From the NCBI RefSeq assembly GCF_002896875.1, contig NZ_CP023278.1, positions 4,720,501-4,784,500 on the forward strand: a stretch of DNA of 64,000 nt. The letters are read 5' to 3'. Position 1 is the stretch's first letter. The number at the start of each line of letters is the position of its first letter. This DNA is from Nostoc sp. CENA543. GTDB lineage: Bacteria > Cyanobacteriota > Cyanobacteriia > Cyanobacteriales > Nostocaceae. The position numbers were made by a program, and so were the translations under genes. Below are positions 8,100 through 28,567 of the stretch, in pieces. The notes under the pieces were generated by a model. The model was not told the origin of the DNA, did not search any database, and saw nothing but the letters and a program-made list of their open reading frames with translations.

Positions 8100-8141
8100 T
8101 TCTATATCCAACATACTCTCCCATTCAACCAGGATATTGGC

Positions 8142-8441: not shown

Positions 8442-8455
8442 TCACCACTAATACT

Positions 8456-8484: not shown

Positions 8485-8513
8485 TGAATTAAACAAGACT
8501 TAATTAAAAAATT

Positions 8514-9035: not shown

Positions 9036-9094
9036 CAGACTTCTTGCAGAAGAACGGGAACGGGGAAATGTTCCCTCCCCTTTCCCATTACCTA

Positions 9095-9195: not shown

Positions 9196-9286
9196 AACTC
9201 CCAACATCACAAAATCTTCCGTCACACCTCTAGTAAAGTTGAAAGTAATGAGCTATGAGTGGTTTAAAACTCCTAGCTCTTTTCGT

Positions 9287-9535
9287 ATGTCTGAAGAATT
9301 TATCATTGGTAGTAAAGTCCGAGTCATAGCATTACCCCCCTATGTCAAAACCGCCGACCCCATGCCTATGCTACGTCCCCCTGATGTCATTCATATAGGT
9401 GAAGAGGGTATAGTTCTTGACCGTCGCCCCGGCGGCTATTGGGGTATTCGCTTTGCTAAGGGAGCTTTTCTTTTAGATAGTCAATACATTGAAAGTATAG
9501 ACAAGCCGCCAGCCAGCAATGAGGCTGAAAGTTGA
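9287..9535 (+). CDS. sipA: SipA, NblS-interacting regulatory protein
   Basis: 82-residue SH3-barrel-like protein matching cyanobacterial SipA (Ssl3451 type): start MSEEFIIGSKVRVIALPPYV, then KTADPMPMLRPPD, GEEGIVLDRRPGGYWGIRFAKG and FLLDSQYIE. SipA binds the sensor kinase NblS (Hik33) and increases its activity toward high-light regulators. The frame is open from 9239 with ATGs at 9239 and 9248, but the family N-terminus begins at 9287. The 17 extra residues cannot be ruled out, as no strong ribosome-binding site decides it. The downstream prxQ gene has an HLR1-type box, which fits the same regulatory circuit. Confidence 0.85.
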   Translation: MSEEFIIGSKVRVIALPPYVKTADPMPMLRPPDVIHIGEEGIVLDRRPGGYWGIRFAKGAFLLDSQYIESIDKPPASNEAES

Positions 9536-9546
9536 AATTGATTGAG

Positions 9547-9567
9547 GACGCGATCAATCGCGTCTTT
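9547..9567 (+). terminator. Hairpin after sipA
   Basis: Perfect 7-bp stem GACGCGA-TCAA-TCGCGTC followed by TTT, 11 bp after the sipA stop. A short, GC-rich, probably weak intrinsic terminator. Confidence 0.55.
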
Positions 9568-9617
9568 AAAGAACTAAAAGTAAGAAGCACTTAAATATAC
9601 CTACAGTTCTGAGCAAG

Positions 9618-9635
9618 AATGTAAACTTATGTAAA
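9618..9635 (-). promoter_or_regulatory. HLR1-type box (RpaB site) before prxQ
   Basis: Read on the minus strand the site is TTTACATA-AG-TTTACATT, which fits every position of the published HLR1 consensus (K-TTACA-WW-NN-K-TTACA-WW) bound by RpaB. It ends 21 bp before the prxQ ATG. The site suggests high-light control of prxQ; the exact promoter was not identified. Confidence 0.6.
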
Positions 9636-9656
9636 GTTGTCATTCTTATCTGCATT

Positions 9657-10214
9657 ATGATTTCCCGACGCAATCTTTTGAATATATTTTTGGTTTGCTG
9701 TTTTACGGTTATCAGTTGGTTAAATTTCGCGCCTGTTACTCATGCACTAGGGGGGAAACTACCTGCAATTAATCAACCTGCACCGGAGTTTACTTTGCCG
9801 ACTAATACAGGAGATGGCCAATTAGGGTTAGCTGATTTGCGTGGTAAGTGGGTAGTTCTGTATTTTTATCCCAAAGATTTTACATCTGGTTGCACGATTG
9901 AAGCCCGTCGTTTTCAGCAGGATTTACCTAAATATGTGGCGAAAAATGTCGAAATAGTCGGTGTTAGTGCTGATGATATCGATTCCCATGCCGAGTTTTG
10001 TGATTCTGAGGGGCTAAAATTTCCGCTTTTAGCTGACACTACCGGTGCTGTGAGTAAAGCTTATGGTTCTTGGCTGGGTTATTTATCTATGCGTCACAGT
10101 TTTATCATTGACCCACAAGGCATCCTCCGGGCTACTTTTGTTAAGGTTAATCCTTCTGTTCACAGTGCAGAAGTCCTGGCGACACTGGAAAAGCTGCAAT
10201 CGGAAGCCTCTTAG
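9657..10214 (+). CDS. Exported peroxiredoxin Q/BCP-type peroxidase
   Basis: 185-residue thiol peroxidase reducing H2O2 and organic peroxides. An N-terminal signal (MISRRNLLNIFLVCCFTVISWLN...THA) predicts the thylakoid lumen or periplasm. The AhpC/TSA domain starts near PAPEFTLP; FYPKDFTSGCT has the peroxidatic Cys at 79. The resolving Cys that PrxQ usually carries five residues later is Arg84 (CTIEARRF), so resolution must use another Cys (C115 in HAEFCDSEG) or an outside thiol. The start at 9657 is the only Met before the signal peptide. An HLR1-type box precedes it. Confidence 0.88.
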   Translation: MISRRNLLNIFLVCCFTVISWLNFAPVTHALGGKLPAINQPAPEFTLPTNTGDGQLGLADLRGKWVVLYFYPKDFTSGCTIEARRFQQDLPKYVAKNVEIVGVSADDIDSHAEFCDSEGLKFPLLADTTGAVSKAYGSWLGYLSMRHSFIIDPQGILRATFVKVNPSVHSAEVLATLEKLQSEAS

Positions 10215-10255
10215 AATTTTGGATTTTGGATTTTGGATTTTAAATTAAAGACTTA

Positions 10256-10390
10256 GGGAACACCAAAAAATAAATTATGCCAAATAAACAGCTTAGTAGG
10301 GTGCGTCAGTATGAATAATCTCTTGGTATAGTTAGGTTTTCTCGCACTGACGCACCCTACAGTTTGGATATTTTTTTATCTGGAAGCCCC
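10256..10390. repeat. MITE with outer TIRs and an inner 15-bp palindrome
   Basis: Outer imperfect terminal repeats (gggaacaccaaaaaataaat... and ...tttttttatctggaagcccc) surround a perfect inner pair gtagggtgcgtcagt (10296-10310) and actgacgcaccctac (10346-10360). The inner unit recurs at 38544-38767, where another element has split it. The outer ends resemble those of 36937-37057. Flanking TTA may be a 3-bp target duplication. Confidence 0.65.
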
Positions 10391-10400
10391 TTAACAGCCG

Positions 10401-10433
10401 TACCCTGATTTTTCGTAGAAATCGGGGTTTTTT
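10401..10433 (+). terminator. Intrinsic terminator
   Basis: Ten-pair stem (accctgattt at 10402-10411 with aaatcggggt at 10419-10428, one G-T pair) and a run of six T. It lies 187 bp after prxQ, past the MITE, and also insulates the ssl1498-family gene. Confidence 0.75.
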
Positions 10434-10513
10434 ATATAAGTAGATTTTATGGATAGTATCAAGTTTTATATGTCAAGTCATCTTGATGTTTTGTAACGAT
10501 ATTGTTATATTTA

Positions 10514-10531
10514 TTTACATAAGTTAACAAG
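10514..10531 (+). promoter_or_regulatory. HLR1-like box before the ssl1498-family gene
   Basis: TTTACATA-AG-TTAACAAG matches the HLR1 consensus in the first half completely and in 6 of 8 positions in the second. It lies 14 bp before the ATG at 10546. Light-harvesting-like genes are known RpaB targets, which makes the imperfect match more believable. Confidence 0.4.
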
Positions 10532-10545
10532 TAAAGGAAAACGAA

Positions 10546-10716
10546 ATGTACACCACCATTAACGAAAGCGGTCAACTCAATAACTACCCCACCGAACCTG
10601 AAATGTACTACGCTGCTTACCCCAATCAGGAACAGCAAAGCCGCTATGCACTTCAAGGTGCGATCGCGACTTTATTTGTGACTGCAATTATCTTGATCGG
10701 TTGTGGTGTCAGCTAA
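10546..10716 (+). CDS. ssl1498-family light-harvesting-like small membrane protein
   Basis: 56-residue protein beginning MYTTINESGQLNNYPTEP, with YYAAYPNQEQQSRYALQG and one transmembrane helix (IATLFVTAIILIGCGVS). This layout is that of the cyanobacterial ssl1498 family, related in style to high-light-inducible (Hli) thylakoid proteins and thought to help photosystem assembly or pigment protection. It is short enough to be missed by length-filtered gene calling. An AGGA ribosome-binding site lies 8 bp upstream. A conserved 65-residue gene follows 59 bp downstream, probably co-transcribed. A HLR1-like box precedes it. Confidence 0.78.
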   Translation: MYTTINESGQLNNYPTEPEMYYAAYPNQEQQSRYALQGAIATLFVTAIILIGCGVS

Positions 10717-10775
10717 TAACGACTGCACACATACCAAAGAATTTAAGAAAATCTAGTAGCTGTGAGGAATTAACA

Positions 10776-10973
10776 ATGTTTGCACCTTTAGTAGTTTTAA
10801 TCCGTAACCTGATGGGCAAAGTACAATTTAATCAATTGCGTGGTAAAGCGATCGCTTTACATTCGCAAGCGATCACTAATTTCTGTAATCGAATTGGTGT
10901 AGAATCCAAGGAAAGACAAAAGTTGATTCGTCTTGCCAAAGATAATGGCAAAAAGCTGGGTTTATTAGCTTAA
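10776..10973 (+). CDS. Small conserved-looking protein of unknown function
   Basis: 65-residue basic protein (MFAPLVVLIRNLMGKVQF...) with a predicted helical body (RGKAIALHSQAITNFCNRIGVESKERQKLIRLAKDNGKKLGLLA). The start at 10776 has GAGG 8 bp upstream; the longer frame from 10701 would overlap the ssl1498-family gene and is rejected. It follows that gene, so a photosynthesis-related role is plausible by context only. Its stop directly abuts the stop of the convergent gene at 10974. Confidence 0.7.
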   Translation: MFAPLVVLIRNLMGKVQFNQLRGKAIALHSQAITNFCNRIGVESKERQKLIRLAKDNGKKLGLLA

Positions 10974-12212
10974 TTAACGTAAACCATCATTATCTATTGC
11001 GCTGTATGCGTCATTGGGAGCGAGTCCCAACCAAGGATCAGAACTGGGAGTGAGAAATAATTGTGCGTATACTTTTTCATTAAGTAACGCCACGTTATCA
11101 GTCTGATTACCTTCTACAAACCATTGATGAATTTGACTGTGCAGCATATATTCGTTTCTGACTGTATCTAAAGCCATTGCTGCTTCAAAATTCTGCACTA
11201 ATCTGGGTAAATTATTCTGTTTAGTTTTAGCTTTGATTAAAGCCACACTATTATCATCTAATTGTGCCTCAACAGTATAAAGTTGAGCAATCCTATTCCA
11301 AGCATCTTCGTTGGTAATTCTGACTAGGTTATCGCGATCGCTGCTAGGTTGAATACTTCTCAGTAATGGACGTTCTACCATCATTTTAGATACTGCTATC
11401 GGTGCAGCAATTCCTGCTGTAGCTGGCTGACTCGGATTAACTGAAGCTGTGCGTTCAGGGGGAGACTGTATCCCTAATTTCGATAAATCAGCTCGCCATT
11501 GGGTTTCAATTGCTTGCAGGCGATCGCTATGGTATTTTTGTAAAAAAGCATTACGGTTTGCACTGGGAAGTCTGCTATATTCCTTAGCTGCAATTTCAGC
11601 TTGCTGGAGTTGTTTTAAAAAAGCTTTCGGCCCATACAATCCAGGAATAGCATCAATCGGACGACCGGAACTATCTAAAACGTAGTGAATACTATTACCT
11701 GTAATTGTCCGTTCTAACTTGCGACCATCGCCAAAATCAACTGTAACTTTAGGCGCAGGACGCACTGACTCCCAGTGGAGAATAAAACGGTCTTGCAGCA
11801 TTTTGGATATTTCTGCATTGGGGTAAAGTGCGACTCTAAAAAAGCGACTATTCGCACAGCTTAAATCTTGGTCGAGTTTACCTAACAACCGCAGAGATAA
11901 AATCGGTTTACCACTAGCTTGAGCTGCTGCTTTAGCCTGTGCTAAATCTGTATACCAATATAAGCGAGAGGCGTAACAGTCTCGTTGCTGACAAAGTGCA
12001 TCTAAAGCTGTCCTCACTTGAGGATCATTAAGTTGGTTAGCATGAATCTTTAGAAATCTTTGTAAGCCTTTCGATCCCTGTTTTCGCAATGTAGCAACTT
12101 CTTGAGATAGTTGAGATGGGGAATTTACCGGAGTGATAGCATCAGCAGGTTGGATGCAACTCAAGCTGAGGAATGCTAATACAAATAAATTTTTATAGCT
12201 GCTGATTTTCAT
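10974..12212 (-). CDS. Exported thioredoxin-fold-like protein
   Basis: 412-residue protein with a signal peptide (MKISSYKNLFVLAFLSLSCIQPADA). Residues about 90-190 look like a thioredoxin-like domain without the CxxC motif: AQAKAAAQASGKPILSLRLLG, then a helix and FILHWESVRPAPK, a Y-V-L-D-S strand and PGLYGP. The C-terminal third (after a Pro/Ala linker at about 255-290) is of unknown fold. Four cysteines in the exported part (CQQRDC, LSCANS) may form disulfides. The gene stands alone. A periplasmic redox or structural role is possible, but I do not recognise the family precisely. Confidence 0.7.
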   Translation of the reverse strand: MKISSYKNLFVLAFLSLSCIQPADAITPVNSPSQLSQEVATLRKQGSKGLQRFLKIHANQLNDPQVRTALDALCQQRDCYASRLYWYTDLAQAKAAAQASGKPILSLRLLGKLDQDLSCANSRFFRVALYPNAEISKMLQDRFILHWESVRPAPKVTVDFGDGRKLERTITGNSIHYVLDSSGRPIDAIPGLYGPKAFLKQLQQAEIAAKEYSRLPSANRNAFLQKYHSDRLQAIETQWRADLSKLGIQSPPERTASVNPSQPATAGIAAPIAVSKMMVERPLLRSIQPSSDRDNLVRITNEDAWNRIAQLYTVEAQLDDNSVALIKAKTKQNNLPRLVQNFEAAMALDTVRNEYMLHSQIHQWFVEGNQTDNVALLNEKVYAQLFLTPSSDPWLGLAPNDAYSAIDNDGLR

Positions 12213-12355
12213 ATTATTTTCTCAAGTGCAAGGAGCATTACATAAATTAGGTGTAATATGCCAGTTATATGCACACCGTCTAACTAATAATGAAGGAACA
12301 AGCATTACCAAAGTTTCCAGCTACCAATGAGAACAGGGTAAATAATTCAAGGTTT

Positions 12356-12401
12356 GTAGTAAGGACTAAAGTCCTTTCTTGAGGACTAAAGTCCTTACTA
12401 C
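12356..12401. repeat. Palindromic 'aggacttYagtcc' repeat, copy 1
   Basis: gtagtaaggactaaagtcc and ggactaaagtccttactac form a 46-bp dyad that contains smaller dyads. Related copies lie at 38635-38682 and, as a half, at 50793-50818. The flanks (aatgagaacagg at 12326 and cctattctcatt near 12430) are also inverted, so it may be the core of a larger element. Confidence 0.6.
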
Positions 12402-12443
12402 GAACGCTATCTTATTATTTTGTTAAATAGCCTATTCTCATTT

Positions 12444-13691
12444 TCATTGGGACTGATTTTTGTGACTACCTAAACAAACTTGCTCATAACGTTGTCCGGC
12501 GATTTCCCAGGTAAATTGTTTTTCGACTAATTGTCTCCCGTTATGAGATAGTTCTGCTCTCAGTGATGGATGATCGAATAATTCACTAATCGCGTCAACG
12601 TATTCTGCGGGGTGATTGGCTCTCAATGCAGCTAATGGTACACCATCACCATCTACATTTAGTCCTTCTAAACCGCGATCGCTTGCTACTGTGGGTACAC
12701 CCGCGGCCATAGCTTCCAGAGTTTTATTTTTGATGCCGAAACCTGTGCGTAATGGCACAACACACACAGTAGATTTATGTAGATAATCTGCCATCACAGG
12801 GACGCGTCCCAAGACTTTGACACCAGGAATTTTTTCTAGACTTAAAACCTCTGGTGTAGGTCTAGCACCTACAATACTAAAGGTTGCATCAGGATAACGG
12901 TTTTGCAGTTCTGGGAAGACAGCGAAGGCAAAAAATCTAGCTGCGTCGATGTTGTGGGAAGCATCCATCGCGCCGACAAAGATTAAACTGTGTCCCCCTG
13001 GGTCTTGGTGACGATAGGGAAATAAGTCTAAATCTACACCGTTGGGAATCACTTGAATGTCAATGTCAGGACGCAGTTTGAGGAATTCTTGGCGGTCATC
13101 TTCCGTGGTGACGACGATATTAGAAAATTTACTACAGTATCGCTGCTCGTAACGCTTCAAAACCAAGGTAAGATAGAGGCGATCGCGCAAAGCATTAGCA
13201 GCTGCACCCATTTCTAAATGATCCCGTATCCAGCCGTACACTGAACTATGCACATCAATCACCGTATTCACTTGATGGCGAAATTCGGGACGGATATAAA
13301 TTTCATTGACACTGTGTTCACAGGTAATCACATCATATTTTTGTTCACGCACACAATTATCAACAAACGCCTGAATTTCCGGCGAATAGCGATGGAGAAC
13401 ATTCGGTGGTGTCGCCTTAGTGACTGATTCTAGGAAGCGTCCCGTTTTCGCCAACAACCCAGCCACAGGATTTTGAGATTGGGGATCTGGTGGTAAGGGG
13501 AAAATCAATAATTCATTAACATACTTGCGTAACTCTTCTACTTCCACATCAGACACACTTTTATTGTACTGAGTTACCAATGTCACATCATGATTTTGCT
13601 GGAGGTATTTCAGTAAATTAAAAGTTCTAATTTCCGTACCACCCCGACTTGGTGGATAAGGAAAAGTCGATGAAAGCATGAGAATACGCAT
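12444..13691 (-). CDS. Glycosyltransferase, GT4 type
   Basis: 415-residue GT-B glycosyltransferase that likely transfers a sugar from a nucleotide-sugar donor onto a cell-surface or lipid acceptor. The N-terminal acceptor half has the start RILMLSSTFPYPPSRGGTEIR; the donor half has VIPNGVDLDLF, LIFVGAMD and the EAMAAGVPTVASDRGLEGL segment with the E-x7-E-type spacing of GT4 enzymes. No transmembrane helix is seen. It is divergent from a GT2-type gene 530 bp away, suggesting a small polysaccharide or glycolipid locus. Acceptor and sugar are unknown. Confidence 0.88.
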   Translation of the reverse strand: MRILMLSSTFPYPPSRGGTEIRTFNLLKYLQQNHDVTLVTQYNKSVSDVEVEELRKYVNELLIFPLPPDPQSQNPVAGLLAKTGRFLESVTKATPPNVLHRYSPEIQAFVDNCVREQKYDVITCEHSVNEIYIRPEFRHQVNTVIDVHSSVYGWIRDHLEMGAAANALRDRLYLTLVLKRYEQRYCSKFSNIVVTTEDDRQEFLKLRPDIDIQVIPNGVDLDLFPYRHQDPGGHSLIFVGAMDASHNIDAARFFAFAVFPELQNRYPDATFSIVGARPTPEVLSLEKIPGVKVLGRVPVMADYLHKSTVCVVPLRTGFGIKNKTLEAMAAGVPTVASDRGLEGLNVDGDGVPLAALRANHPAEYVDAISELFDHPSLRAELSHNGRQLVEKQFTWEIAGQRYEQVCLGSHKNQSQ

Positions 13692-14046
13692 AGATGAGCC
13701 TTAGATGGGTTAGTATTTTTTATAACTTTTATACTTTACTTGTAAAATATAGCGGCAAATCATCTCAATATTCAAATGTGCTATTGACTCATCAGCAAAC
13801 CTCACCACTCACCATTCACTACTCAGCACGGGCTAAACGCCCCGCTTCCGCTAACAGCACTCAGCACTCACCACTTACCACTTTCACGCTAAGATTGCTG
13901 TAGGCAAAATCTAGATACTCTTGATATACTGACCGATTGACAAGTGTATAAATATTTTTATCTATGTAAACAATAGCGGTAATCAAAATCATCTGCATAT
14001 TATGTAGGATTCCTACTAGATTTTTGAACAGATACGTAGATAAGTA
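13692..14046. other. Intergenic region with dispersed repeat text
   Basis: Between the two glycosyltransferase genes. About 13785-13885 holds a dispersed non-coding repeat (actcatcagcaaacctcacc..., then acgggctaaacgccccgcttccgctaac). Weak ORFs on both strands here have no family features and read through the repeat. Confidence 0.5.
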
Positions 14047-14123
14047 AGGTGTGTTAGCGACAGCGTAACGCACCTAACACCAAGGCCTTTGGTGCGTTAC
14101 GGCTAAAGCCTAACACACCCTAC
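14047..14123. repeat. MITE-like hairpin
   Basis: About 30-bp imperfect terminal inverted repeats (aggtgtgttagcgacagcg... and ...ctaaagcctaacacaccct) with a central near-palindrome caccaaggcctttggtg. This kind of element is frequent in heterocystous cyanobacterial genomes. Confidence 0.65.
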
Positions 14124-14221
14124 TGGACTACATATACTTAGATTTTCCTTCAAATAAAATCGGATTCCTATAAATAGATTTAAGCCAGGAATTTTATTTA
14201 ATATTTTGCACCAAAAAAACT

Positions 14222-15175
14222 ATGAATAATCAACCTTTACTCTCGATAATTACGCCAACCTTGGGAAAATTTTCTGATTATTGGTTAGAAAATCTGCTGA
14301 AAATAGAAGGTTCTGTGCAGTTTGTTTTAGTTTATCCGCCAAACGTAAAAATTAAAGCAATTGATGATCCTAGAGTCACAGCTATAGTTAGTCCCTATAA
14401 AGGAGAAATGCCACAGAGATTTGTGGGCTTACTCAATGCTCAAGGTAAATATATTTTAGCCTTAGATGATGATGATTATGTACATCCACAAGTTTGTTCA
14501 GCAGTCGAGAAATACTTTCACCGATTTCCTGAAAGTTGGGTTTTGAGATTACAAAAACTCAATATTGATATGAAGGACGAAGTGAGGATTAAACAAGCTT
14601 GGGAAGAAATTCCTGATGTTGACCAATTAGAAATTTGCAAAAAAACACCGGAAAACCCCTATCCTTATAATCAAGGTAACTTTCAAGGTTTATTAGAAGT
14701 TCCCATTGCACCTTTAGATAAAAACTTTGATTGGCGTTATTTATTCTGGCCTTTTATTAATAGAACTGATAATAATGGCTATCACTTTGAGAACTTTAAT
14801 AATATTGTGTGGCGTAACGATATAATTCAGCAAGCATTACCAGAACTTTCCCAAGCCACCAAGGTTTTAGGTGCAGTAACCTGGATACCATCAAGCGGAT
14901 TTGATAGATTATCTGGTTTATTTGTGCAAGCAAATTTATTTGAAAAAGATGCGATTATCGGTCACTGGATGCCAAAGCCAGAACAAATTAGATATATAGA
15001 TAAAGACCCTGCTTTAAAGCCACCGAGATTTCATGTAATTTCTGATGTGTTGCTAGTGAAGCATTTCCCGAAATACGGTTATTTATGGAATTTGGTATTT
15101 AGTAAGCTTTATGGTGTTCCGAGAACAGTAGGAAAAGTAATGAAGTTGAAGTTAGGGAAGACACCACAGAAGTAA
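14222..15175 (+). CDS. Glycosyltransferase, GT2 type
   Basis: 317-residue GT-A-fold glycosyltransferase. The N-terminus LLSIITPTLGKFSDYW starts the fold, and YILALDDDDYVHP (about residues 79-91) holds the metal-binding Asp cluster. The C-terminal part (GHWMPKPEQIRYIDKDPALKPP...) is not assigned. The usual GT2 C-terminal motifs are unclear, so the sub-family is unknown. It is divergent from the GT4 gene and precedes the unusual three-gene operon by 144 bp; no link between them is implied. Confidence 0.8.
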   Translation: MNNQPLLSIITPTLGKFSDYWLENLLKIEGSVQFVLVYPPNVKIKAIDDPRVTAIVSPYKGEMPQRFVGLLNAQGKYILALDDDDYVHPQVCSAVEKYFHRFPESWVLRLQKLNIDMKDEVRIKQAWEEIPDVDQLEICKKTPENPYPYNQGNFQGLLEVPIAPLDKNFDWRYLFWPFINRTDNNGYHFENFNNIVWRNDIIQQALPELSQATKVLGAVTWIPSSGFDRLSGLFVQANLFEKDAIIGHWMPKPEQIRYIDKDPALKPPRFHVISDVLLVKHFPKYGYLWNLVFSKLYGVPRTVGKVMKLKLGKTPQK

Positions 15176-15319
15176 TTGTGTATCTCTTTGGGAATAAATT
15201 TGCGATCGCTCGATATTAACTCACCACTGGTAACAATTAGAGCTACTATATAAGAGAGTGTGTAAATTATTGCTTATTGGGCTAGAGTAGTTAGGTTGTA
15301 GATGCTCTAAATTACCAGT

Positions 15320-16168
15320 ATGGACACAAATGAATTAAAGTTCCTCTTAAAGCTATTGGGATTTTCCAACTATCGTGCTGGACTGAGTGCAAATGCCTTT
15401 AGTAGTTTTAAAGGGAAGGATAAAATTTGTCGAGCATTGGGCGATCGCGAACTGGTAGACTATTCCCGTGAGATTGCCACAGTTAAAATTTTATCTCCTG
15501 GTCAAGCCTTGCTGAAACTCCCACCAGGACAGTTACCCATCACCGACAAAGAACGGAAGGTGCTGGAGAAAATCAGTAGTGCTGGTAAAATCGCACCCAG
15601 CAAAATTACCTCAGTCAAAGCTGCTGAACGAGACGCGATATTCAAAACCCTCAGTGAACGGGGATTGATTGAAACTGAATTACAACGTAAAAAAAATGGG
15701 GCTGAGGTGTGGCTAACTGAAAGAGGAGTTGAATTTTTACGGGATGACTACACACCAAACAAAAGTTCTAATCCTGTTATCAGTCAAGAACTGCTGGGAA
15801 ACTATCTCCGATTTTTACGCAAGACTTTGCGCGTTAAGCCAGAAACAGAATCTATTTTGTCTATTCCCACTGTTGAGTCATCAGTTGAAACGATTATCAA
15901 TATCACTGATGAAGAAATTTTACAAACTATTGAGAAATTAGACAAAGAATTGGGTACACAAAATTATTTACCCATCTTTCATCTACGGCAAAAATTACAA
16001 CCACCACTCTCACGCGATGAATTAGATCAAGCTTTGTATCGGTTGCAAAAGAATGATCTAATTGAACTGAGTACATTGTTAGATCCTACACCATATACAA
16101 CAGAACAGTTAAATAGTGGTATTCCACAGAATATAGGTGGTTCGTTGTTTTTTCTCAGTGTTAATTAA
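15320..16168 (+). CDS. Multi-winged-helix protein, first gene of the FtsK-fusion operon
   Basis: 282-residue soluble protein with no catalytic motif. At least two winged-helix-like units can be read: about 73-137 (ITDKERKVLEKISS ... SKITSVKAAERDAIFKTLSERGLIETEL ... VWLTERGVEFL) and about 215-270 (QNYLPIFHLRQKL, SRDELDQALYRLQKNDLIELS). The N-terminus (ELKFLLKLLGFSNYRAGLSANAF) is also helical and its pattern (KICRALGDRELVDYSRE) is like a third. It likely binds DNA or acts as an adaptor. The ATPase gene follows after 58 bp and the nuclease-FtsK fusion after that. I cannot assign a named family. Confidence 0.75.
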   Translation: MDTNELKFLLKLLGFSNYRAGLSANAFSSFKGKDKICRALGDRELVDYSREIATVKILSPGQALLKLPPGQLPITDKERKVLEKISSAGKIAPSKITSVKAAERDAIFKTLSERGLIETELQRKKNGAEVWLTERGVEFLRDDYTPNKSSNPVISQELLGNYLRFLRKTLRVKPETESILSIPTVESSVETIINITDEEILQTIEKLDKELGTQNYLPIFHLRQKLQPPLSRDELDQALYRLQKNDLIELSTLLDPTPYTTEQLNSGIPQNIGGSLFFLSVN

Positions 16169-16226
16169 CACTTATCTTCATGATTTTGCCTTGTAGTTCA
16201 GGTTGCTCACTCACCAAAATTTAAAT

Positions 16227-18371
16227 ATGACATCAATTAACGAAATTATCAAACGCGAGATTAACCCTTTTGACCTTGTAAATTTAAAGTCAGGTAATTT
16301 TTGGAGTGAAAAACAAGGTTTTGAGTCTGTAGTTGAGTCAATTCATCAAGAAGCAATCAGTGAAATCGAAGCATTATTAGACTTGGTGGAGAAAGATCAC
16401 CGTACCCGTACTGTTTTGCTTACAGGTGATTCTGGCTCTGGTAAAAGTTACCTACTAGCTAGACTAAAATTTAAGTTGAATTCTAGAGCTTTTTTTGCTT
16501 ATGTAAGTCCTTGGCCTGACAACGATTATATTTGGCGGCACATTTTACGTTATACAGTTGATAGTTTAATCCAAATACCAGAAGGACAACAAGATTCTCA
16601 ATTGATATTGTGGCTTAAAAGTTTATCTGCTTTTACTAAGCAAAGTCTCAAGAAGCGCATTTTTAATCATAATTTGTGGGAATTATTACTCAGTGATCGC
16701 CAAAACTTTATTAAGGAACTCAAGAAAACATATAAACAAGTAGGTATCTATAACCCTGACATATTTTTTGGCATACTGCATGACCTAACTGATCCTGAAT
16801 TATATCCTTTGGCTTGCGAATGGTTGCGCGGCGACGACTTAAGTGAAGATTCAATGGCTGAATTAAAAGTTAAACACTGTATTGATAGTGAAGATGCAGC
16901 CAAAAATATTTTAGCTAACTTTGGTAAAATCTCTACTGACACTCAACCAATAGTTTTATGCTTTGATCAAGTTGAAAGCCAAGCAAATTGGGAGTCAAAT
17001 CCTCAACCTATTTTTAATATTAATACTACAGTACACAATGATAATCTCAGGAATTTTCTCATTATCATAAGTATAGTTCAATCAGAATGGAGACAAAAAA
17101 GCAGCCGAATTTTACAATCAGATAAAGCTAGGGTAGATAAGCAGGTAATACTAAAACCTATTAATTTAAATCAGGCAGAATCACTTTGGATGTATCGTCT
17201 AAACTTTCTGCATCAAAGAGCAAATACCAAGCCTGATTCGCTTCTTTTTCCTTTAGATAAGGAATTATTGGAGAAAAATTTTCCAGGTGGTAAAACTCTA
17301 CCAAGAAACACCTTAATTTTAGGTAGACATGAGTATCAAAGATATAAACTTTCTTTATTAGATAGTGACGAAACAGTTCCAACAAAACCTCCTGTTACTG
17401 TTCCATCCTTAAGACCAGAAGTAATAGATCCAAAAAAAGTTAATATACATCTAGTTAAAAAGCATGATGGTACGCTAATTATCCCTCCGCCTCCTCCACC
17501 TCCAGATAATCTTGAGCAAGTTCAGGCAGAGTTTCAACTACTATGGCAAAAAGAATATAAGAAAAATCAGGAGAAATATAGCAAGATTTCATTGTTATCA
17601 TCACCTGATTTAATTGTAATGTTGCAACAAGCATTGATAGCCTTACAAATTCAGGAAATTAAGCTGAAACTATTAAGAGGTAACTATGCTAGTTATTCTT
17701 TGAGTTATCAAGAATCTGGTAAGAAAGAAAGAGTAGGTGTAGTATGGACTGAAGACGCAAGTATGACAAGCTTTTTTCATGTCATGAATGCTTGCCAGAG
17801 AGTTATTCAACAAAATTTATGTCACACCCTATATTTAATTAGACTCGCAGGAGTAGGAACATCAAGACTAGCTGGAAATCAGATATATCAGCAAATTTTT
17901 ACCCACACTAACCATTATCACATAAGACCCAATCTTACTTCGGTTCACTATTTAGTAACATATCAAAATTTGGTCAACTCTGCGCTATCTCAAGAATTGG
18001 TACTGACAAGTCAACGTAGAGCAATTAGCTTACAAGAATTACAATCTTTAATTAGGCAGTCGAAAATTTTACACAAGTGTACTTTATTTCAGGAATTAGG
18101 AATTATTCCGAAAGAACAAACTAAGCCAGACAATGGTAATGATACAAGCAAGAATTTAAACCCAGTCAAAGATTTCTTATTGAATCTGGTGAAAACGCAA
18201 AGCTTTATGGGTGTACCTACTTTAATTAAAAATGCCGTTGATCAGTTTCCTAGTGTCAAAGAAAATGATGTTCAGCTACTAATTGATATGCTATGCCAAG
18301 AGAAGAGAGTAGAGATTATTAACCCAAAAGCTAAGTTTCAAGATAAATTAATCTGTCTGATTGCAAAATAG
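16227..18371 (+). CDS. P-loop ATPase of the FtsK-fusion operon
   Basis: 714-residue soluble ATPase. It begins like Orc/BrxC/BrxD-type ATPases (EINPFDLVNLKSGNFW). Walker A is GDSGSGKS at 67-74; Walker B is PIVLCFDQVES with D247. An 'ACEWLRGDDLSEDSM' segment (about 196-210) lies between them. A proline run (about 421-428) separates the ATPase part from a C-terminal half of unclear fold that may resemble an inactive nuclease-like domain (ERVGVVWTED) and ends in a winged-helix-like unit (about 650-714). A TTG at 16203 would add eight residues; the ATG at 16227 is preferred. The fusion gene follows after 27 bp. The role is probably to recognise or load onto DNA; the family is not certain. Confidence 0.82.
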   Translation: MTSINEIIKREINPFDLVNLKSGNFWSEKQGFESVVESIHQEAISEIEALLDLVEKDHRTRTVLLTGDSGSGKSYLLARLKFKLNSRAFFAYVSPWPDNDYIWRHILRYTVDSLIQIPEGQQDSQLILWLKSLSAFTKQSLKKRIFNHNLWELLLSDRQNFIKELKKTYKQVGIYNPDIFFGILHDLTDPELYPLACEWLRGDDLSEDSMAELKVKHCIDSEDAAKNILANFGKISTDTQPIVLCFDQVESQANWESNPQPIFNINTTVHNDNLRNFLIIISIVQSEWRQKSSRILQSDKARVDKQVILKPINLNQAESLWMYRLNFLHQRANTKPDSLLFPLDKELLEKNFPGGKTLPRNTLILGRHEYQRYKLSLLDSDETVPTKPPVTVPSLRPEVIDPKKVNIHLVKKHDGTLIIPPPPPPPDNLEQVQAEFQLLWQKEYKKNQEKYSKISLLSSPDLIVMLQQALIALQIQEIKLKLLRGNYASYSLSYQESGKKERVGVVWTEDASMTSFFHVMNACQRVIQQNLCHTLYLIRLAGVGTSRLAGNQIYQQIFTHTNHYHIRPNLTSVHYLVTYQNLVNSALSQELVLTSQRRAISLQELQSLIRQSKILHKCTLFQELGIIPKEQTKPDNGNDTSKNLNPVKDFLLNLVKTQSFMGVPTLIKNAVDQFPSVKENDVQLLIDMLCQEKRVEIINPKAKFQDKLICLIAK

Positions 18372-18398
18372 TCTGTTTGTATTATGTAACCTGAATCA

Positions 18399-20978
18399 AT
18401 GCACTACCTGAAAGAAGCGACGGAAATAACAGATGTCATATCCCAATTAGCAACAGCTAAAACACTGTGGCTAGACACAGAAATTGCTCATTGTTATACA
18501 TCTAATCCTCAACTATCGCTGATTCAGGTATTAGCTGAACCTACAGATAGAACAGGCGCATCAGCCTATATCCTAGATGTGTTGAATAAACATGATTTGG
18601 TGGAACATTTTATTAACCAAATCATGGTGAAACCTAACATCCAAAAAGTGTTTCACAATGCTGGTTTTGATTTAAAGTATTTAGGAAAAAAGCTGGCTAA
18701 TAATATAACCTGTACTTACGAATTAGCTAGAAAAATTACACATAAACGCCTGCAAACAACCAACTTAAAATTAAAAACGTTAGCCGCAGAACTCTGTCAT
18801 TTTGTAGATGTAGATGGAACAGAACAAGCTAGTGATTGGGGAAAACGTCCCCTCAGCCAAAAGCAGCTAAAATATGCAGCAATGGATACGGTTTATTTAG
18901 CGGCTGTTCATCGTCGCCTGTTGGAAATATCTAACCCTGGTGCTGTCAGTCAAATTTTTATAATTAATAACTTCTCAAAGCAGTTAACAGAAGATATGGA
19001 AAACCCATCTTTAAGCGTGACTAAAGTCCGCATTGCTTTTGAATGTCCTCGGCTGTTTTATTTAAATCATAAGTTTAGTGATAAAGCTATATTTCTACCA
19101 CCAGATACAGCAATTGGTATTGGCAACCCTTTTCATCAATTAGCAGATAAATTTATTAAATTAGCGTTGATTGAGCCGCAATTTACAGATTTATTTAAAC
19201 CAGCCGCATCACAGCTAAATACAGAATCAATTACTAGTGCAGTTCAACAACTGTTCTATCAGCTAGAGTTTTTTCCCTATCTACAACAAGCTATACAAAA
19301 AGATAGTGAACAGGGTAAGACACTTTTACAGGTATGGAATGGATTACAAGGATTGATTAGACGCTTTGTTGAGTTATTAGTGATTAATAGACGCTATTGT
19401 AATACAGATAAATTGATTAGTAACACTTTTCTGTCTACAGGACGTAACATTGAAAATTATTTCACTTTACCCAATGCTACGAAGCAATTAGTTAGAGGTG
19501 AATTTGATTGTTTAGTCTTTAATTTTGAAATAAATCGTCTATGTGTAGTGGAATTTAAAACTTATAAACCGGTAGATCCTGCTGCACAATTAGCTCAGGT
19601 TTCACTTTATAGTTATATGCTGCATCATCACAAAAAAGTCCCTGTTGATTCAGCAGTTTATTGTGTATTACCTGAATTTAAAGAATATCGTTATTCTTGG
19701 GAACAGCTAGAAAATACGGTAAATCAGCTAATTCCCCACAAATTGCTACAAATGCAGCAATGGTTAACTTGGGAATCACCCCATCCTAACCCACCACCAC
19801 GCACAACTCAGCCCCATCTGTGTGAAATTTGTCCCCAAAAGCAAAAGTGCGGGACTTTTTTTGGTGATGCGATATTTGATCCCCCCCAACCCCCCTTAAA
19901 AACGGGGGAGAAAGAATCTGTTGATACCAAAATTGCGGAACCAACAACCAATGCTGATGACATGGGACAGGCTTTGGTAAATACCCTGCAATCTTTTAAT
20001 GTTGCTGTGGAATATTTAGGTGCGGCTGTGGGGCCTGCTTTTATTAGGGTAAAATTGAAACCCAATTTGGGTGTCAGAGTGAATACATTGCTCAGATGTT
20101 CCAATGATTTACAGGTGCAATTAGGATTAACAGATAAACCATTAATTGCGCCACAGGCTGGGTATGTCAGTATTGATTTACCACGTTCAGATAGACAGGT
20201 TGCTAATTTTACAGATTATATTCAAAAACAAAATTTAAGTTCGACTGCACCAATGAAAATTGCTATTGGTGTAAGTCTAGAGGGAAAATTGCTAGAGGCT
20301 GATTTATCTGATCCTAATTCCTGTCACTTCTTAATAGGGGGGACGACTGGTAGCGGTAAGAGTGAGTTTTTGCGATCGCTCCTCCTCAGTTTACTATATC
20401 GTCATACCCCGCAAAATCTCAAAGTTGCTCTAGTTGACCCCAAACGCGTCACCTTTCCAGAGTTTGAGCGCATGGCTTGGTTACATTCGCCAGTTGTGAA
20501 AGATAGCGATCGCGCTACCGAACTTATGGAAGAATTAGTTTTAGAAATGGAATCTCGTTATCAGCAGTTTGAAAAAGCTGGCTGTGCTGATTTAACTACC
20601 TATAATCAGCGTTCTCATCAACCCTTACCGCGTACAGTTTGCATTTTTGATGAATACGCCGATTTCATGGCGGAAAAAGAAATCCGTAAAACTTTAGAAC
20701 AAAGTATTAAACGTTTAGGCGCAATGGCGAGGGCGGCGGGAATTCATCTCATCATCGCCACCCAACGTCCTGAAGCTGGTATTGTCACCCCCATTATCCG
20801 TTCCAATTTACCTGGAAGAGTCGCTTTAAGAACCGCTAGTGAAGGCGACTCAAAAATTGTCTTGGGAGGTACAGAAACATCCGCCGCTTATCTATTAGGA
20901 AAAGGTGACTTACTCTACCAAATCGGCCCTCAATTACATCGTTTACAAAGTTTATTTGCTCAACAGATTCAGATATAA
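18399..20978 (+). CDS. RNase D-type exonuclease / Fe-S Cas4-AddB-like nuclease / FtsK motor fusion
   Basis: 859-residue triple fusion. (1) Residues 1-180: DEDDy 3'-5' exonuclease of RNase D type, all catalytic residues kept: D26-x-E28, N87/D91 (FHNAGFDLKYL), Y159-x3-D163 (SDWGKRPLSQKQLKYAAMD). (2) About 204-486: PD-(D/E)XK nuclease of Cas4/AddB type: C216 (FECPRLFYL), H246 (GNPFHQ), D370, E385-x-K387 (VEFK) and C475-x2-C478-x5-C484; one plus three cysteines is the 4Fe-4S arrangement. (3) About 521-859: FtsK alpha and motor domains, Walker A GGTTGSGKS (647-655), Walker B VCIFDEYAD (D751), AARAAGIHL-like and ATQRP segments. There is no membrane anchor and no gamma domain. A repeat encodes part of the 494-504 linker. 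Probable DNA translocating nuclease, possibly defence or recombination. Confidence 0.88.
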   Translation: MHYLKEATEITDVISQLATAKTLWLDTEIAHCYTSNPQLSLIQVLAEPTDRTGASAYILDVLNKHDLVEHFINQIMVKPNIQKVFHNAGFDLKYLGKKLANNITCTYELARKITHKRLQTTNLKLKTLAAELCHFVDVDGTEQASDWGKRPLSQKQLKYAAMDTVYLAAVHRRLLEISNPGAVSQIFIINNFSKQLTEDMENPSLSVTKVRIAFECPRLFYLNHKFSDKAIFLPPDTAIGIGNPFHQLADKFIKLALIEPQFTDLFKPAASQLNTESITSAVQQLFYQLEFFPYLQQAIQKDSEQGKTLLQVWNGLQGLIRRFVELLVINRRYCNTDKLISNTFLSTGRNIENYFTLPNATKQLVRGEFDCLVFNFEINRLCVVEFKTYKPVDPAAQLAQVSLYSYMLHHHKKVPVDSAVYCVLPEFKEYRYSWEQLENTVNQLIPHKLLQMQQWLTWESPHPNPPPRTTQPHLCEICPQKQKCGTFFGDAIFDPPQPPLKTGEKESVDTKIAEPTTNADDMGQALVNTLQSFNVAVEYLGAAVGPAFIRVKLKPNLGVRVNTLLRCSNDLQVQLGLTDKPLIAPQAGYVSIDLPRSDRQVANFTDYIQKQNLSSTAPMKIAIGVSLEGKLLEADLSDPNSCHFLIGGTTGSGKSEFLRSLLLSLLYRHTPQNLKVALVDPKRVTFPEFERMAWLHSPVVKDSDRATELMEELVLEMESRYQQFEKAGCADLTTYNQRSHQPLPRTVCIFDEYADFMAEKEIRKTLEQSIKRLGAMARAAGIHLIIATQRPEAGIVTPIIRSNLPGRVALRTASEGDSKIVLGGTETSAAYLLGKGDLLYQIGPQLHRLQSLFAQQIQI
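19878..19909. repeat. Palindromic repeat inside the fusion gene
   Basis: gatcccccccaacccccctt-aaaa-acgggggag type sequence, a very common dispersed cyanobacterial repeat (C-run, AA, C-run, TTAAAA, G-run). Here it is in frame and encodes DPPQPPLKTGE at residues 494-504, the linker between the nuclease and motor domains. Confidence 0.7.
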
Positions 20979-22046: not shown

Positions 22047-22931
22047 ATGGGATACGTAATTGCAACTGCAAATATGAAAGGTGGTGTAGGGAAAACAACC
22101 CTCACCGTAAATTTAGCTACTTGTTTAGCAAAAAATTACGGTAAAAAGGTACTAGTTCTGGATTTAGATACCCAAATCAGTGCTACGCTCAGTCTGATGT
22201 CACCTTTAGATTTTGCCAAACGTCGCAAACAAAGATTGACATTTAGATATCTGATTGATGAAGTGATCAACCCAGATCCTAAGTCTGAGCTAAACATCAA
22301 CGATATCATCCAAACTCAGGTCTGTAATCTGTCAGAACTACATTTATTACCGGGAGATATCGACTTATATGATGAGTTTGTGGTGTCAGAAATGCTGCAC
22401 AGACAAACAGTGGCTTTGGGGGAACAAGACTTTGAAACTGTGTGGAATCGGTTTGAACGTGTCTTGATTAATAACATTTTAAAACCAGTGCGTGAGCAGT
22501 ATGATTTTATTCTTTTGGATTGCGCTCCTGGATACAATTTAATGACGCGTAGTGCTTTAGCGGCAAGTGATTTTTATTTACTTCCCGCTAAACCAGAACC
22601 TTTATCTGTGGTGGGAATTCAACTGTTAGAAAGACGCATTGGCCAGCTAAAAGACAGTCATGAACAGGAAGCCAAGATAAATATTAAAATGCTGGGAATT
22701 GTTTTCAGTATGTGCAACACCAATTTACTTACGGGTAGATATTACAAACAAGTGATGCACCGCGTTGTAGAAGATTTTGGTGTTGAACAAATTTGTAAAG
22801 CCCAAATTCCAGTAGATATTAATGTTGCAAAAGCTGTTGATAGTTTTATGCCGGTTGTCTTAAATTCACCCCAGTCAGCAGGTTCTAAAGCGTTTATGCA
22901 GTTAACTCAAGAGTTGTTGCAGAAGTTGTAG
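22047..22931 (+). CDS. ParA-family partition ATPase (orphan)
   Basis: 294-residue ParA/Soj-type ATPase. It has a deviant Walker A with signature lysine (MKGGVGKTTLTVNLA), Walker A' (VLVLDLDTQISATLSL) and Walker B (FILLDCAPGYNLMTRSALAASD). Such ATPases move DNA, proteins or organelles by gradients on the nucleoid with a partner such as ParB or McdB. There is no parB directly downstream, so the cargo is unknown. A ParB-like candidate at 35182 is far away. It may serve chromosome or plasmid-derived partition or protein positioning. Confidence 0.88.
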   Translation: MGYVIATANMKGGVGKTTLTVNLATCLAKNYGKKVLVLDLDTQISATLSLMSPLDFAKRRKQRLTFRYLIDEVINPDPKSELNINDIIQTQVCNLSELHLLPGDIDLYDEFVVSEMLHRQTVALGEQDFETVWNRFERVLINNILKPVREQYDFILLDCAPGYNLMTRSALAASDFYLLPAKPEPLSVVGIQLLERRIGQLKDSHEQEAKINIKMLGIVFSMCNTNLLTGRYYKQVMHRVVEDFGVEQICKAQIPVDINVAKAVDSFMPVVLNSPQSAGSKAFMQLTQELLQKL

Positions 22932-25684: not shown

Positions 25685-28567
25685 TTAAAACTCACCAGCT
25701 AAGGCGGGAATGCACCTTTCGCACAATAAAGGATGCTCTTGTGATTCTCCCACATGGGTTGAGTAGTTCCAGCAGCGATCGCATTTTTCGCCGTCTGCAT
25801 TCACTACGCCAATTCCCCAATTATCAGATTGCAAGTTATATTTCACAGTTGGCAATTTCTCCGGTGAATCTAATAACTCAACCTGGGAAGTGAGGAATAA
25901 ATAACGCAGTTCATCGATACCGTTACCGCTAACAGGATTTAATGTTGCAATGGCGGTACGTGCTTTGTCATCGCTGACGTAAATTAAAGCTTTCGCTTCT
26001 AGGGAAGAACCAATCATTTTTTCTACCCTAGCTTGTTCTAAAACCTTGTTTACATCAGTCCGCAACTGACGTAATTGTTGCCAAGATTCCGCCAACTCTG
26101 TATTATGCCATTTATCTTCTAGTTTCACCCAACCAGCTTGAAATACTGATTTGTAGGGTGTTTTGTAGGGGAGATATTGCCAGATATCTTCAGCAGTATG
26201 GCAGAGAACAGGTGCGATCGCTCGTGCTAAATTTTCTAAGGCGATGTGGATGACTGTTTGGCAACTGCGACGACGGAAAGAATTTGGCGCACTGATATAT
26301 AGCCTATCTTTCGCTACATCTAAATAGAAGTTAGATAAATCCACCACACAGAAATTCTGTACAGTTTGGAAGAACCGGAAGAATTGGAAACTTTCAAAAG
26401 CTTCTGTTACTTCTAGGAACACTTCCCGGATGCGGTGCAGCATATATTTATCTAACTGCGGTAACTCCTCAAAAGGAATTGCATCTTTTTCGGGGTCAAA
26501 ATCATGCAAACTTCCCAGCAAGAACCGCGCCGTATTGCGAATCTTACCGCGCACATCGTTGAGTTGCTTAATGATATTTTTCCCAATGCGGACATCACCG
26601 GAGTAGTCTACCGAAGATACCCACAATCTCAGTACATCTGCACCATAAGCTGGATCTGATTTTTGATTTTTCCCGCCTTCAATGATGGCATTGGGATCAA
26701 CCACATTTCCTTCTGATTTACTCATTTTCCGACCTTGTTCATCCAAAGCAAAGCCGTGAGTTAACACAGTTTTGTAAGGTGCAATGCCATTTACCGCTAC
26801 ACTAGTCAGCAAACTCGACTGAAACCAACCGCGATGTTGGTCAGAACCTTCTAAATATATATCAGCTGGGTAACGTAACTCTGGACGCTGCTTGACTACA
26901 GAAGCCCAAGACGAACCAGAATCAAACCACACATCCATTGTGTCAGTACCGCGACGGTAAGACCGACCATTATTTCTGTAAGACTCTGGTAATAATTCCT
27001 CTACCGACAACTCCCACCAAGCATCAGAACCTTTTTCGGCAATGATAGCTTGCACATGATTAATCGTTTCCTCATTGAGTAAAGGTTCACCCGTTTCCTC
27101 ATCATAGAATACCGGAATTGGCACACCCCAAGAACGCTGACGAGAGATACACCAATCAGAACGTTCCGCCACCATTGGCGTGATGCGATTTTCACCTTGG
27201 GCTGGTATCCATTTTACAGATGCGATCGCCTTTAATGCGTCCTCTCGAAATCCCGCCACCGAAGCAAACCACTGTTCAGTCGCCCGGAAAATCGTCGGCT
27301 TCTTCGTCCGCCAGTCATAAGGATACTTATGCGCGTAAGCCTCCTCCTTCAACAGCGAACCCGCAGCCGTCAACGCATCAATTACCGCCTGATTCCCATC
27401 ACCCAGGACATTCAACCCAGCAAACTGTCCCGCTTCCTCAGTAAAATTACCATGATCATCCACAGGCGCAAGAATCGGCAGACCATAACGCAAACCCACA
27501 ATATAGTCTTCTTGACCATGACCAGGCGCAGTATGCACCAACCCAGTACCCGATTCAGTAGTGATATAATCACCACCCACCACCACCGGACTTTCCCTAT
27601 CAAACAAAGGATGACGGTAAGTAGTATGTTCTAAATCCTGCCCTTTGAATGTGGCTTTTACAGTCAAATCCGCCGAGATAGTAGCAGCCAACCGTTCCAC
27701 CAACTCAGCCGCCACGATGAGATATTTGAACTTACTTTGCGCCTCTGCGTCTTTGCGTGAGATTTCCACCAAAGCATAATTCAACTCGCCATTAACCGCT
27801 ACCGCCAAATTCCCCGGAATAGTCCAAGGAGTAGTAGTCCAGACAGCCACACCCAAATCAGGCAAATACTCACCCAAAACAGGCTTAACCGCCTCAGCCA
27901 ACCCCGTCACCGGAAAAGCCGCGTAAATACTTCTGGAAGTATGACCTTCAGGATATTCCAACTCCGCCTCAGCCAAAGCCGTCTGAGAACTGGGACTCCA
28001 GTGAACTGGCTTCAAACCCCGGTAGATGTAACCTTTCAAGTACATCTGGCCAAACACCCCAATTTGCGCCGCCTCATATTCCGGCTTCAGCGTCAAATAA
28101 GGATTATCCCAGTCACCCCAAACCCCATAGCGTTTAAAACTCTTGCGCTGGTCATCAACGGTCGCCAAAGCAAATTCCTTCGCTTTTTGCCGCAATTGCA
28201 GAGGTGTTAAATTTTGCCGTTCTGCCGACTTGAGATTTTGCAAAACCTTCAATTCAATTGGCAAGCCATGACAGTCCCAACCAGGCACATAACGCACCTT
28301 CCGCCCTTGTAGCAGTTGGTAACGATTAATAATATCTTTGAGAATTTTATTTAAGGCATGACCAATATGAAGTGAGCCGTTTGCGTAGGGAGGCCCATCG
28401 TGCAGTATAAATAATTCGCCTGGGTTATTTTGCGACAGGCTCTCAAAAATTTGATTCTCTTCCCAGAACTTTTGAATTTCAGGCTCACGCTTGATGGCAT
28501 TCGCCCGCATATCAAAACTAGTCTTGGGTAAATTTACAGTATCTTTGTAACTTCCGGTTTCTGTCAC
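25685..28567 (-). CDS. ileS: Isoleucyl-tRNA synthetase
   Basis: 960-residue class I aminoacyl-tRNA synthetase that charges tRNA-Ile, with an editing domain for valine. Seen: GSLHIGHALNKIL (HIGH), the CP1 editing region (TTTPWTIPGNLAV, GTGLVHTAPGHGQEDY), WFDSGSSWA, RKMSKSEGN (KMSKS), and the C-terminal zinc finger C-DRC...LLCERC that marks the bacterial type. Length is normal. The 3' end is partly duplicated at 23771-23825. The antisense ORFs here are shadows. Essential housekeeping gene. Confidence 0.97.
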   Translation of the reverse strand: MTETGSYKDTVNLPKTSFDMRANAIKREPEIQKFWEENQIFESLSQNNPGELFILHDGPPYANGSLHIGHALNKILKDIINRYQLLQGRKVRYVPGWDCHGLPIELKVLQNLKSAERQNLTPLQLRQKAKEFALATVDDQRKSFKRYGVWGDWDNPYLTLKPEYEAAQIGVFGQMYLKGYIYRGLKPVHWSPSSQTALAEAELEYPEGHTSRSIYAAFPVTGLAEAVKPVLGEYLPDLGVAVWTTTPWTIPGNLAVAVNGELNYALVEISRKDAEAQSKFKYLIVAAELVERLAATISADLTVKATFKGQDLEHTTYRHPLFDRESPVVVGGDYITTESGTGLVHTAPGHGQEDYIVGLRYGLPILAPVDDHGNFTEEAGQFAGLNVLGDGNQAVIDALTAAGSLLKEEAYAHKYPYDWRTKKPTIFRATEQWFASVAGFREDALKAIASVKWIPAQGENRITPMVAERSDWCISRQRSWGVPIPVFYDEETGEPLLNEETINHVQAIIAEKGSDAWWELSVEELLPESYRNNGRSYRRGTDTMDVWFDSGSSWASVVKQRPELRYPADIYLEGSDQHRGWFQSSLLTSVAVNGIAPYKTVLTHGFALDEQGRKMSKSEGNVVDPNAIIEGGKNQKSDPAYGADVLRLWVSSVDYSGDVRIGKNIIKQLNDVRGKIRNTARFLLGSLHDFDPEKDAIPFEELPQLDKYMLHRIREVFLEVTEAFESFQFFRFFQTVQNFCVVDLSNFYLDVAKDRLYISAPNSFRRRSCQTVIHIALENLARAIAPVLCHTAEDIWQYLPYKTPYKSVFQAGWVKLEDKWHNTELAESWQQLRQLRTDVNKVLEQARVEKMIGSSLEAKALIYVSDDKARTAIATLNPVSGNGIDELRYLFLTSQVELLDSPEKLPTVKYNLQSDNWGIGVVNADGEKCDRCWNYSTHVGESQEHPLLCERCIPALAGEF

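Follow-up and report, generated by a model that had tools for sequence, protein, structure and literature searches.

A conserved cyanobacterial gene set with a double-nuclease FtsK motor fusion and a repeatedly replaced AAA+ ATPase

Closest described systems and the Nostoc gene set

SspFGH is a three-gene set that combines a Walker A protein with a large protein carrying a C-terminal FtsK-like motor, and DndFGH follows the same logic of an ATPase plus an FtsK-like translocase (both according to the pertinent sections of PMC8092258). Here we describe A-B-C, a set that likewise has three genes with a Walker A protein and an FtsK-like motor protein, found in a stretch of 64,000 nucleotides from Nostoc sp. 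CENA543 (NZ_CP023278.1, positions 4,720,501 to 4,784,500; hereafter the window). Gene A (15320..16168) encodes a winged-helix protein of 282 amino acids (aa), gene B (16227..18371) an Orc1/Cdc6-like AAA+ ATPase of 714 aa, and gene C (18399..20978) a fusion of a DEDDy exonuclease, a PD-(D/E)XK nuclease and an FtsK alpha and motor part, 859 aa in all. The three genes lie on the forward strand, are separated by 58 and 27 base pairs (bp), exactly as a preliminary description of the locus had placed them, and are presumably co-transcribed; the start of B is the ATG at 16227, which is backed by alignments, the listed frame beginning with a TTG at 16203. A-B-C is a conserved cyanobacterial gene set, in which C has largely been inherited vertically and the end of A, together with most of B, has repeatedly been replaced, and the sequences suggest an undescribed way of destroying foreign DNA.

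Searches against Pfam, NCBIfam and PADLOC returned single domains and no match to a named system at the level of the trio, in agreement with the preliminary description, which knew of no named system with this architecture, and searches of open-licence papers, PMC8092258, PMC7159879, PMC12458937 and PMC12507012 among them, brought up no description of the trio. The best PADLOC match of C is SspH, at 228 bits and over positions 1399-1740 only, and the hhalign score of 99.9 between the two proteins likewise concerns the motor only: SspH open frames measure 1770-1815 aa and align to the much shorter C in the motor alone. B and SspF (hhalign probability 4.7) and A and SspG (0.4) did not match when one cyanobacterial protein of each was compared. 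No Dnd model was matched by A, B or C in PADLOC (E <= 1), a collection that presumably holds DndF, DndG and DndH models; DndA and DndC models are present in its results. The layout of B had been called Orc/BrxC-like, and the second half of that comparison fell away: an ATPase of the BREX (bacteriophage exclusion) BrxC type was not supported, B giving no BrxC match in PADLOC and an hhalign probability of 1.6 against one SspC/BrxC-type protein.

With the iron-sulphur (Fe-S) nucleases of the AddB/Cas4 type C shares the PD-(D/E)XK core and the 1+3 cysteines, and it gives weak Cas4 matches, but it adds an FtsK motor and a DEDDy exonuclease in the same chain. Its alpha and motor domains are those of canonical FtsK, whereas no FtsK gamma or membrane family was matched in C (Pfam; no separate membrane-helix prediction was made), which bears out the earlier statement that both parts are missing. 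A conserved machine of which one subunit is swapped by recombination is familiar from HsdS in type I restriction; here, instead, an AAA+ ATPase is exchanged along with the tail of its winged-helix neighbour.

Domains, active sites and distribution

Residues 2-175 of C (18402..18923, forward strand, as for the domains that follow) form an RNase D-type DEDDy 3'-5' exonuclease domain (DNA_pol_A_exo1, PF01612, E 5.5e-30), and residues 204-484 (19008..19850) a PD-(D/E)XK nuclease (PDDEXK_1, PF12705, E 1.3e-10) with the cysteine layout C216 and C475-x2-C478-x5-C484, a 1+3 pattern that in PD-(D/E)XK nucleases is linked to Fe-S clusters. The FtsK alpha domain and motor occupy residues 512-859 (19932..20975; PF17854, PF01580), with FtsK_alpha matched over 512-595 (E 4.6e-10) and FtsK_SpoIIIE over 613-791 (E 2.7e-39), and the motor closely resembles FtsK proteins of solved structure (2iuu, E 2e-49). 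All 63 full-length fusions compared (62 from the named loci introduced below plus the window) have the same residue at each of twenty catalytic, cysteine and Walker positions (no chance model was applied). The twenty comprise the RNase D-type catalytic residues D26, E28, D91, Y159 and D163, the residues C216, H246, D370, E385, K387, C475, C478 and C484 of the PD-(D/E)XK region, with its D-ExK core and the four cysteines of a predicted Fe-S cluster, and G647, G648, G653, K654, S655, D751 and E752 of the motor. The intact exonuclease, the nuclease with its 1+3 cysteines and the FtsK alpha and motor domains in one chain, all of which had been noticed in the preliminary description, are thereby confirmed.

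B is a P-loop protein (AAA_16, E 9.1e-9, Pfam), and its model (predicted local distance difference test, pLDDT, 85) matches AAA+ folds including Orc1/Cdc6 (2qby_B, E 1.5e-4; 1fnn_A, E 3.6e-4); the Orc1/Cdc6 scores are modest, p97 and Rix7 are the top-ranked fold matches, and Foldseek TM-scores (template modelling) are low, at 0.11-0.26 by query length among the matches listed. The model ends, judged by eye, in a winged-helix-like C-terminal part. The Walker A lysine is kept in 89 of 89 B rows. Next to the Walker B aspartate position, on its C-terminal side, 46 of these rows have Gln, 41 have Asn and 2 have His, so that ATP hydrolysis by B may be slow, or may be served by an acid two residues further on. 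In the model of A, of moderate confidence (pLDDT 74), several winged-helix-like units can be made out, with a likeness to various winged-helix proteins and no fold match at E <= 0.001; all Pfam matches of A fall below curated cut-offs (best ScpB, E 0.011). The two partners previously reported, a multi-winged-helix protein and a P-loop ATPase of Orc-like layout, thus hold within the limits of these models. Some named loci also contain A-B-B operons, and in all seven that were read (L156, L165, L169, L173, L177, L178, L182) the first B is of the Gln type and the second of the Asn type after the Walker B aspartate; L156, L165, L177 and L182 hold A-B-C as well.

In a survey of 386 cyanobacterial genomes (G numbers), the nuclease-motor part of C is present in 36, of which 20 belong to the window's family, represented by 42 genomes in the survey, and 16 to other families of the order. 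G024 and G042 (C-terminal fragments), G383 (pseudogene), G305 (interrupted) and G320 (nuclease only) were not counted, nor were motor-only matches and SspH. B accompanies the nuclease-motor part in 36 of 36. Among 34 loci examined (the window and 33 fetched, G066 and G298 not being fetched), A-B-C is contiguous in 30, B-C stands at a contig end in one (G207) and A-B is unlinked from C in three (G233, G051, G101); interrupted G305 is also contiguous and uncounted, and frames are shortened or split in a few of the loci (e.g. L103, L097, L069). The fusion is therefore not a gene that always occurs without the other two, a pattern that would have spoken against the preliminary description.

A second sample, the 78 named loci (L numbers), was recruited through B as the best 80 of 221 matches, so that rates of A and C are conditional on B; the loci end within about 10 kilobases (kb) of B, and all 78 titles are cyanobacterial. 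A is present in 77 of them, and C is a full-length fusion in 62, a motor part with no or a partial DEDDy domain in 2, represented by other parts only in 9 and missing in 5 (some for lack of contig). Many filamentous cyanobacteria carry the set, mostly on the chromosome, and genome size, compared by eye, did not separate carriers from non-carriers.

The architecture of C varies at the margins, the DEDDy domain being missing or separate in some relatives. In L136, L137, L142 and L148, C is shortened to the DEDDy and PD-(D/E)XK part (488-495 aa) and the motor is gone, with a 73-aa remnant in L142. L096 (4924-12872) has a separate PD-(D/E)XK gene (287 aa) ahead of A and a 1121-aa C with added length between its domains. 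A separate RNase D-type gene of 309-311 aa lies in the neighbourhood in L173 (16776-17705), L177, L178 and L182, and is a possible source of the DEDDy domain of C. In L100 an element (7908-15002) with two tyrosine recombinases and, by eye, a P-loop-like protein splits C at the Walker A codons; excision elements of the heterocyst type had been suspected at this site, and this sole inspected case, with its two tyrosine recombinases, is one that we would liken to Tn554-type transposons.

Exchange of the A-tail/B tract and the case for defence

Identities and a C tree (a quick tree) were compared for 41 loci, each with A, B, C and ParA, the product of a downstream gene treated below, and 15 extra rows entered the B tree only. 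In the C tree, loci mostly cluster with members of their own family, which is not so in the B tree. The window and L157 (Nostoc sp. CMAA1605) are sisters in the C tree, with C 97% and ParA 99% identical, and their B proteins are 61% identical; in the B tree the window is sister to L105 and L157 to L129 (support 100/100 each), and L105 and L129 are in turn sisters in C (97% identical). Similarly, B of L158, L167, L168, L179 and L180, from five families, forms one clade (100/100), and C of each of these loci groups with its own family or nearest relatives. Approximately unbiased (AU) tests on B, run on 24 of the 41 rows with quick trees and with groups picked after the trees were seen, rejected the groups {window, L157} (p 4e-87) and {L105, L129} (p 6e-59) and a four-member Scytonemataceae group (p 8e-33).

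At the DNA level the window and L157 are 93-98% identical over 14200-16000, 32-76% identical from there to about 18200 and 90-99% identical through C, and L105/L129 and L158/L170 give profiles of the same shape; the control pair L125/L124, in which B is not exchanged, lacks it apart from dips. DNA identity, protein profiles, trees and AU tests together place the replaced tract at 16040..18200 (forward strand, approximate ends), with identity falling from residue 241 of A, so that the last ~40 residues of A are included. C is at least 85% identical in 29 locus pairs. In ten of these the identity of B falls short of that of C by more than 18 points, and in these exchanged pairs the identity of A is 0.49-0.69 over residues 241-282 and 0.79-0.99 in earlier parts, with ParA at 0.96. 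Across the 41 loci the partial rank correlation with B 1-380, given motor and ParA identity, is 0.67 for A 241-282 and -0.08 to 0.07 for other parts of A.

In the four exchanged pairs measured, synonymous divergence (dS) is 1.2-2.5 in B and 0.15-0.26 in C, and the ratio of nonsynonymous to synonymous divergence (dN/dS) of B is 0.16-0.22; over 13 pairs whole-gene positive selection on B was not seen (dN/dS 0.14-0.26), and L115/L152, not counted as exchanged, also has a high dS in B (1.2, vs 0.5 in C). Because dS of B lies far above that of C with a low dN/dS, the most likely source of the divergent copies is the import of old, functional B alleles by homologous recombination. Hidden paralogy, with different lineages keeping different members of an ancestral B1-B2 pair, is in our judgement unlikely to explain the incongruence, since the tract begins inside A and, in the window and L157, stops inside B.

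That divergent B alleles have been imported time and again into a machine otherwise inherited largely vertically suggests that an arms race, or incompatibility classes, act on B, and hence favours defence. We would call it an even matter whether A-B-C is a DNA-translocating nuclease against foreign DNA whose AAA+ subunit is an exchangeable specificity or escape part. Such a complex would be a multi-subunit, ATP-driven translocase-nuclease that attacks foreign or otherwise marked DNA, with C as its effector: the FtsK motor would probably form a ring that pumps double-stranded DNA, and the PD-(D/E)XK domain and the DEDDy 3'-5' exonuclease would cut and trim the strands of the DNA reeled in. B, with its Orc/Cdc6-like fold, would together with A recognise the target and then load or license C. 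B and the tail of A would be the part in conflict, swapped as a cassette by homologous recombination with C and most of A retained, as expected of a specificity subunit or of a subunit inhibited by invaders. The preliminary description had proposed a DNA-translocating nuclease complex for defence, plasmid exclusion or end processing, and the conserved three-gene unit and the intact nuclease and motor sites uphold its structural basis; a role in conflict is favoured indirectly, by the repeated replacement of B alleles, by patchy occurrence and frequent loss, and by a second kind of nuclease-bearing module, the HSDR_N-ParA/ParB pair described below, that recurs at the same site in some genomes.

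A number of results weigh against defence. The defence-island setting that had been expected was not seen, although the neighbourhoods of relatives were not systematically scanned for defence genes; most copies of the set lie on chromosomes, C has largely descended vertically, and the mobile-element collections searched hardly contain B (none among 50,697 phage records, one among 72,556 plasmid records), which also weakens the idea of a mobile island. The sole plasmid with the set, from Pseudanabaena PCC 7367, is typed conjugative, and its C lacks the DEDDy domain. With C as query, viral contigs gave one weak match (23%) to the exonuclease stretch only, and 507 plasmid records matched, none reaching 80% coverage; among the matches listed, only that of Pseudanabaena PCC 7367 spans the whole nuclease-motor (77%), the others covering about 36-43%, mostly motor. 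The ten window proteins scanned include no recognisable modification enzyme, so that the defence reading offers no account of how self would be told from non-self, and a plasmid contig (C3) with conjugation-type genes, judged by eye, coexists in the same genome. The exchange evidence has weak points of its own. The ten exchanged pairs share members, so that the trees, as we read them, require about five or six separate replacements; in the control pair L125/L124, identity dips at an insertion/deletion in C and, less deeply, towards the end of B; and A 201-240, outside the tract, is at 0.87-0.99 in exchanged pairs and 0.96-0.99 in the others. The A-tail may be either part of the cassette or merely adjacent DNA that hitch-hikes beside B.

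A single chain that unites two nuclease domains with a ring-type translocase, together with a conserved pair of loader-like proteins, is of interest in organisms whose defences are, in our judgement, less explored. Nature supplies ready-made swaps in strain pairs whose C is near-identical and whose B differs, and these could show what the Orc-like subunit recognises.

The ParA site, rival explanations and related sets

Three features extend the preliminary description, i.e. the exchange of B between strains, a conserved ParA neighbour and a second related set in the same genome. The ParA-type ATPase (294 aa; 22047..22931, forward strand) lies downstream of C and has an orthologue in 47 of the 78 named loci, and ileS (25685..28567, reverse strand) is a more distant neighbour, present in 22. 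ParA was found in 97 of the 386 genomes (E <= 1e-80), including 41 of 42 of the window's family, with or without the trio, which indicates that it marks the site and is not a required part; a functional tie between the trio and its neighbour is weakened accordingly. The site also records decay. Two congeners (G024, G042) retain the last 179 and 196 residues of C, G383 has pieces of A, B and C, and G251 and G199 each have a separate DEDDy domain, in G199 still accompanied by A and B. Within the window's family, 4 of 42 genomes have broken or interrupted copies of C, and 22 of 42 are without an intact C nuclease-motor, three of which keep decayed remains of it at this site. Most likely the set was present early on and has been lost repeatedly.

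The main rival to defence is a role in chromosome maintenance, in which C would replace a missing canonical FtsK and clear, resect or segregate chromosome ends, dimers and damaged DNA, with A and B as an initiator-like loader. No strong FtsK motor other than that of C (133 bits) turned up in the genome, where a further FtsK match, on plasmid contig C3, covers 35 positions at 27.4 bits (cut-off 24), and the ParA-ileS setting of many loci, the largely vertical C and the Orc/Cdc6-like fold of B are all in line with such a function; C would then be a stand-in for an FtsK otherwise lacking in the genome. ParA, however, occurs irrespective of the trio, about half of the family does without an intact nuclease-motor, and repeated replacement of B is unexpected for a housekeeping loader, which together make maintenance unlikely.

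At the ParA site, often where the trio is missing, we also observed a fusion between a ParA ATPase and an HSDR_N-like domain of type I restriction (e.g. L192 7355-9522, also L187, L188, L194, L195, L196, L197, L200, L202 and others). Its HSDR_N matches are mostly just under the Pfam cut-off, and a ParB_N-type protein follows it in most cases. This or a similar ParA is present in 13 of the 78 named loci and a ParB-type partner in 14 (either in 17, both in 10), and among 19 fetched ParA loci without an intact trio, 10 have the HSDR_N-ParA type and 8 the ParB-type partner. The pair is possibly a nuclease-armed partition module. One may then ask whether the trio and this pair control co-resident plasmids rather than phages, the B alleles being incompatibility classes: ParA/ParB-type genes recur at the site, one copy of the set is on a plasmid typed conjugative, and B allele classes are common to several families, but a member of the pair was found in only those 17 named loci, within the stretch fetched, and we hold plasmid partition or incompatibility to be quite improbable.

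Weakest is a phosphorothioate-dependent restriction module like SspFGH that uses Ssp-type modification genes elsewhere in the genome, which we consider highly improbable and have rejected: SspH is the best PADLOC match of C and the genome does have SspC, SspD and SspA/DndA-like genes, but the motor alone is shared, hits of the SspH model also turn up in 8 of 14 control genomes, Escherichia coli and Bacillus subtilis among them (SspH proper reaches 2040-2395 bits, in 4 of the 386 genomes), B and A are unlike SspF and SspG, the phosphorothioation locus of the genome has a PbeA-like helicase nearby, and SspD, the sole Ssp gene searched in relatives, was not associated with the trio (7 of 36 positives vs 3 of 20 negatives, the latter all from the window's family; E <= 1e-40) and in positives is never nearer than ~47 kb.

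Returning to defence, a fuller version is rather doubtful, namely that A-B-C is a cyanobacteria-specific immune machine, a vertical FtsK-driven double nuclease retargeted by imported Orc-like AAA+ alleles and the docking tail of A, at a place in the chromosome where nuclease-armed ParA/ParB modules and paired ATPases of the Gln and Asn types accumulate as well.

The second set of the genome, L184 (7138-11284, corresponding to C1:4483138-4487284), consists of a winged-helix protein that resembles A (hhalign 80%), an ATPase that resembles B (hhalign 97.4%) and a third gene, the N-terminal part of whose product matches DUF1802 and which has a PD-(D/E)XK-like motif by eye. It differs from A-B-C in that the third gene lacks an FtsK motor and the ATPase reads DE at Walker B. 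The Ssp-type phosphorothioation locus of the same genome (L214, C1:962001-982000) combines SspA/DndA, SspC and SspD with the PbeA-like helicase and an MzaB-like protein.

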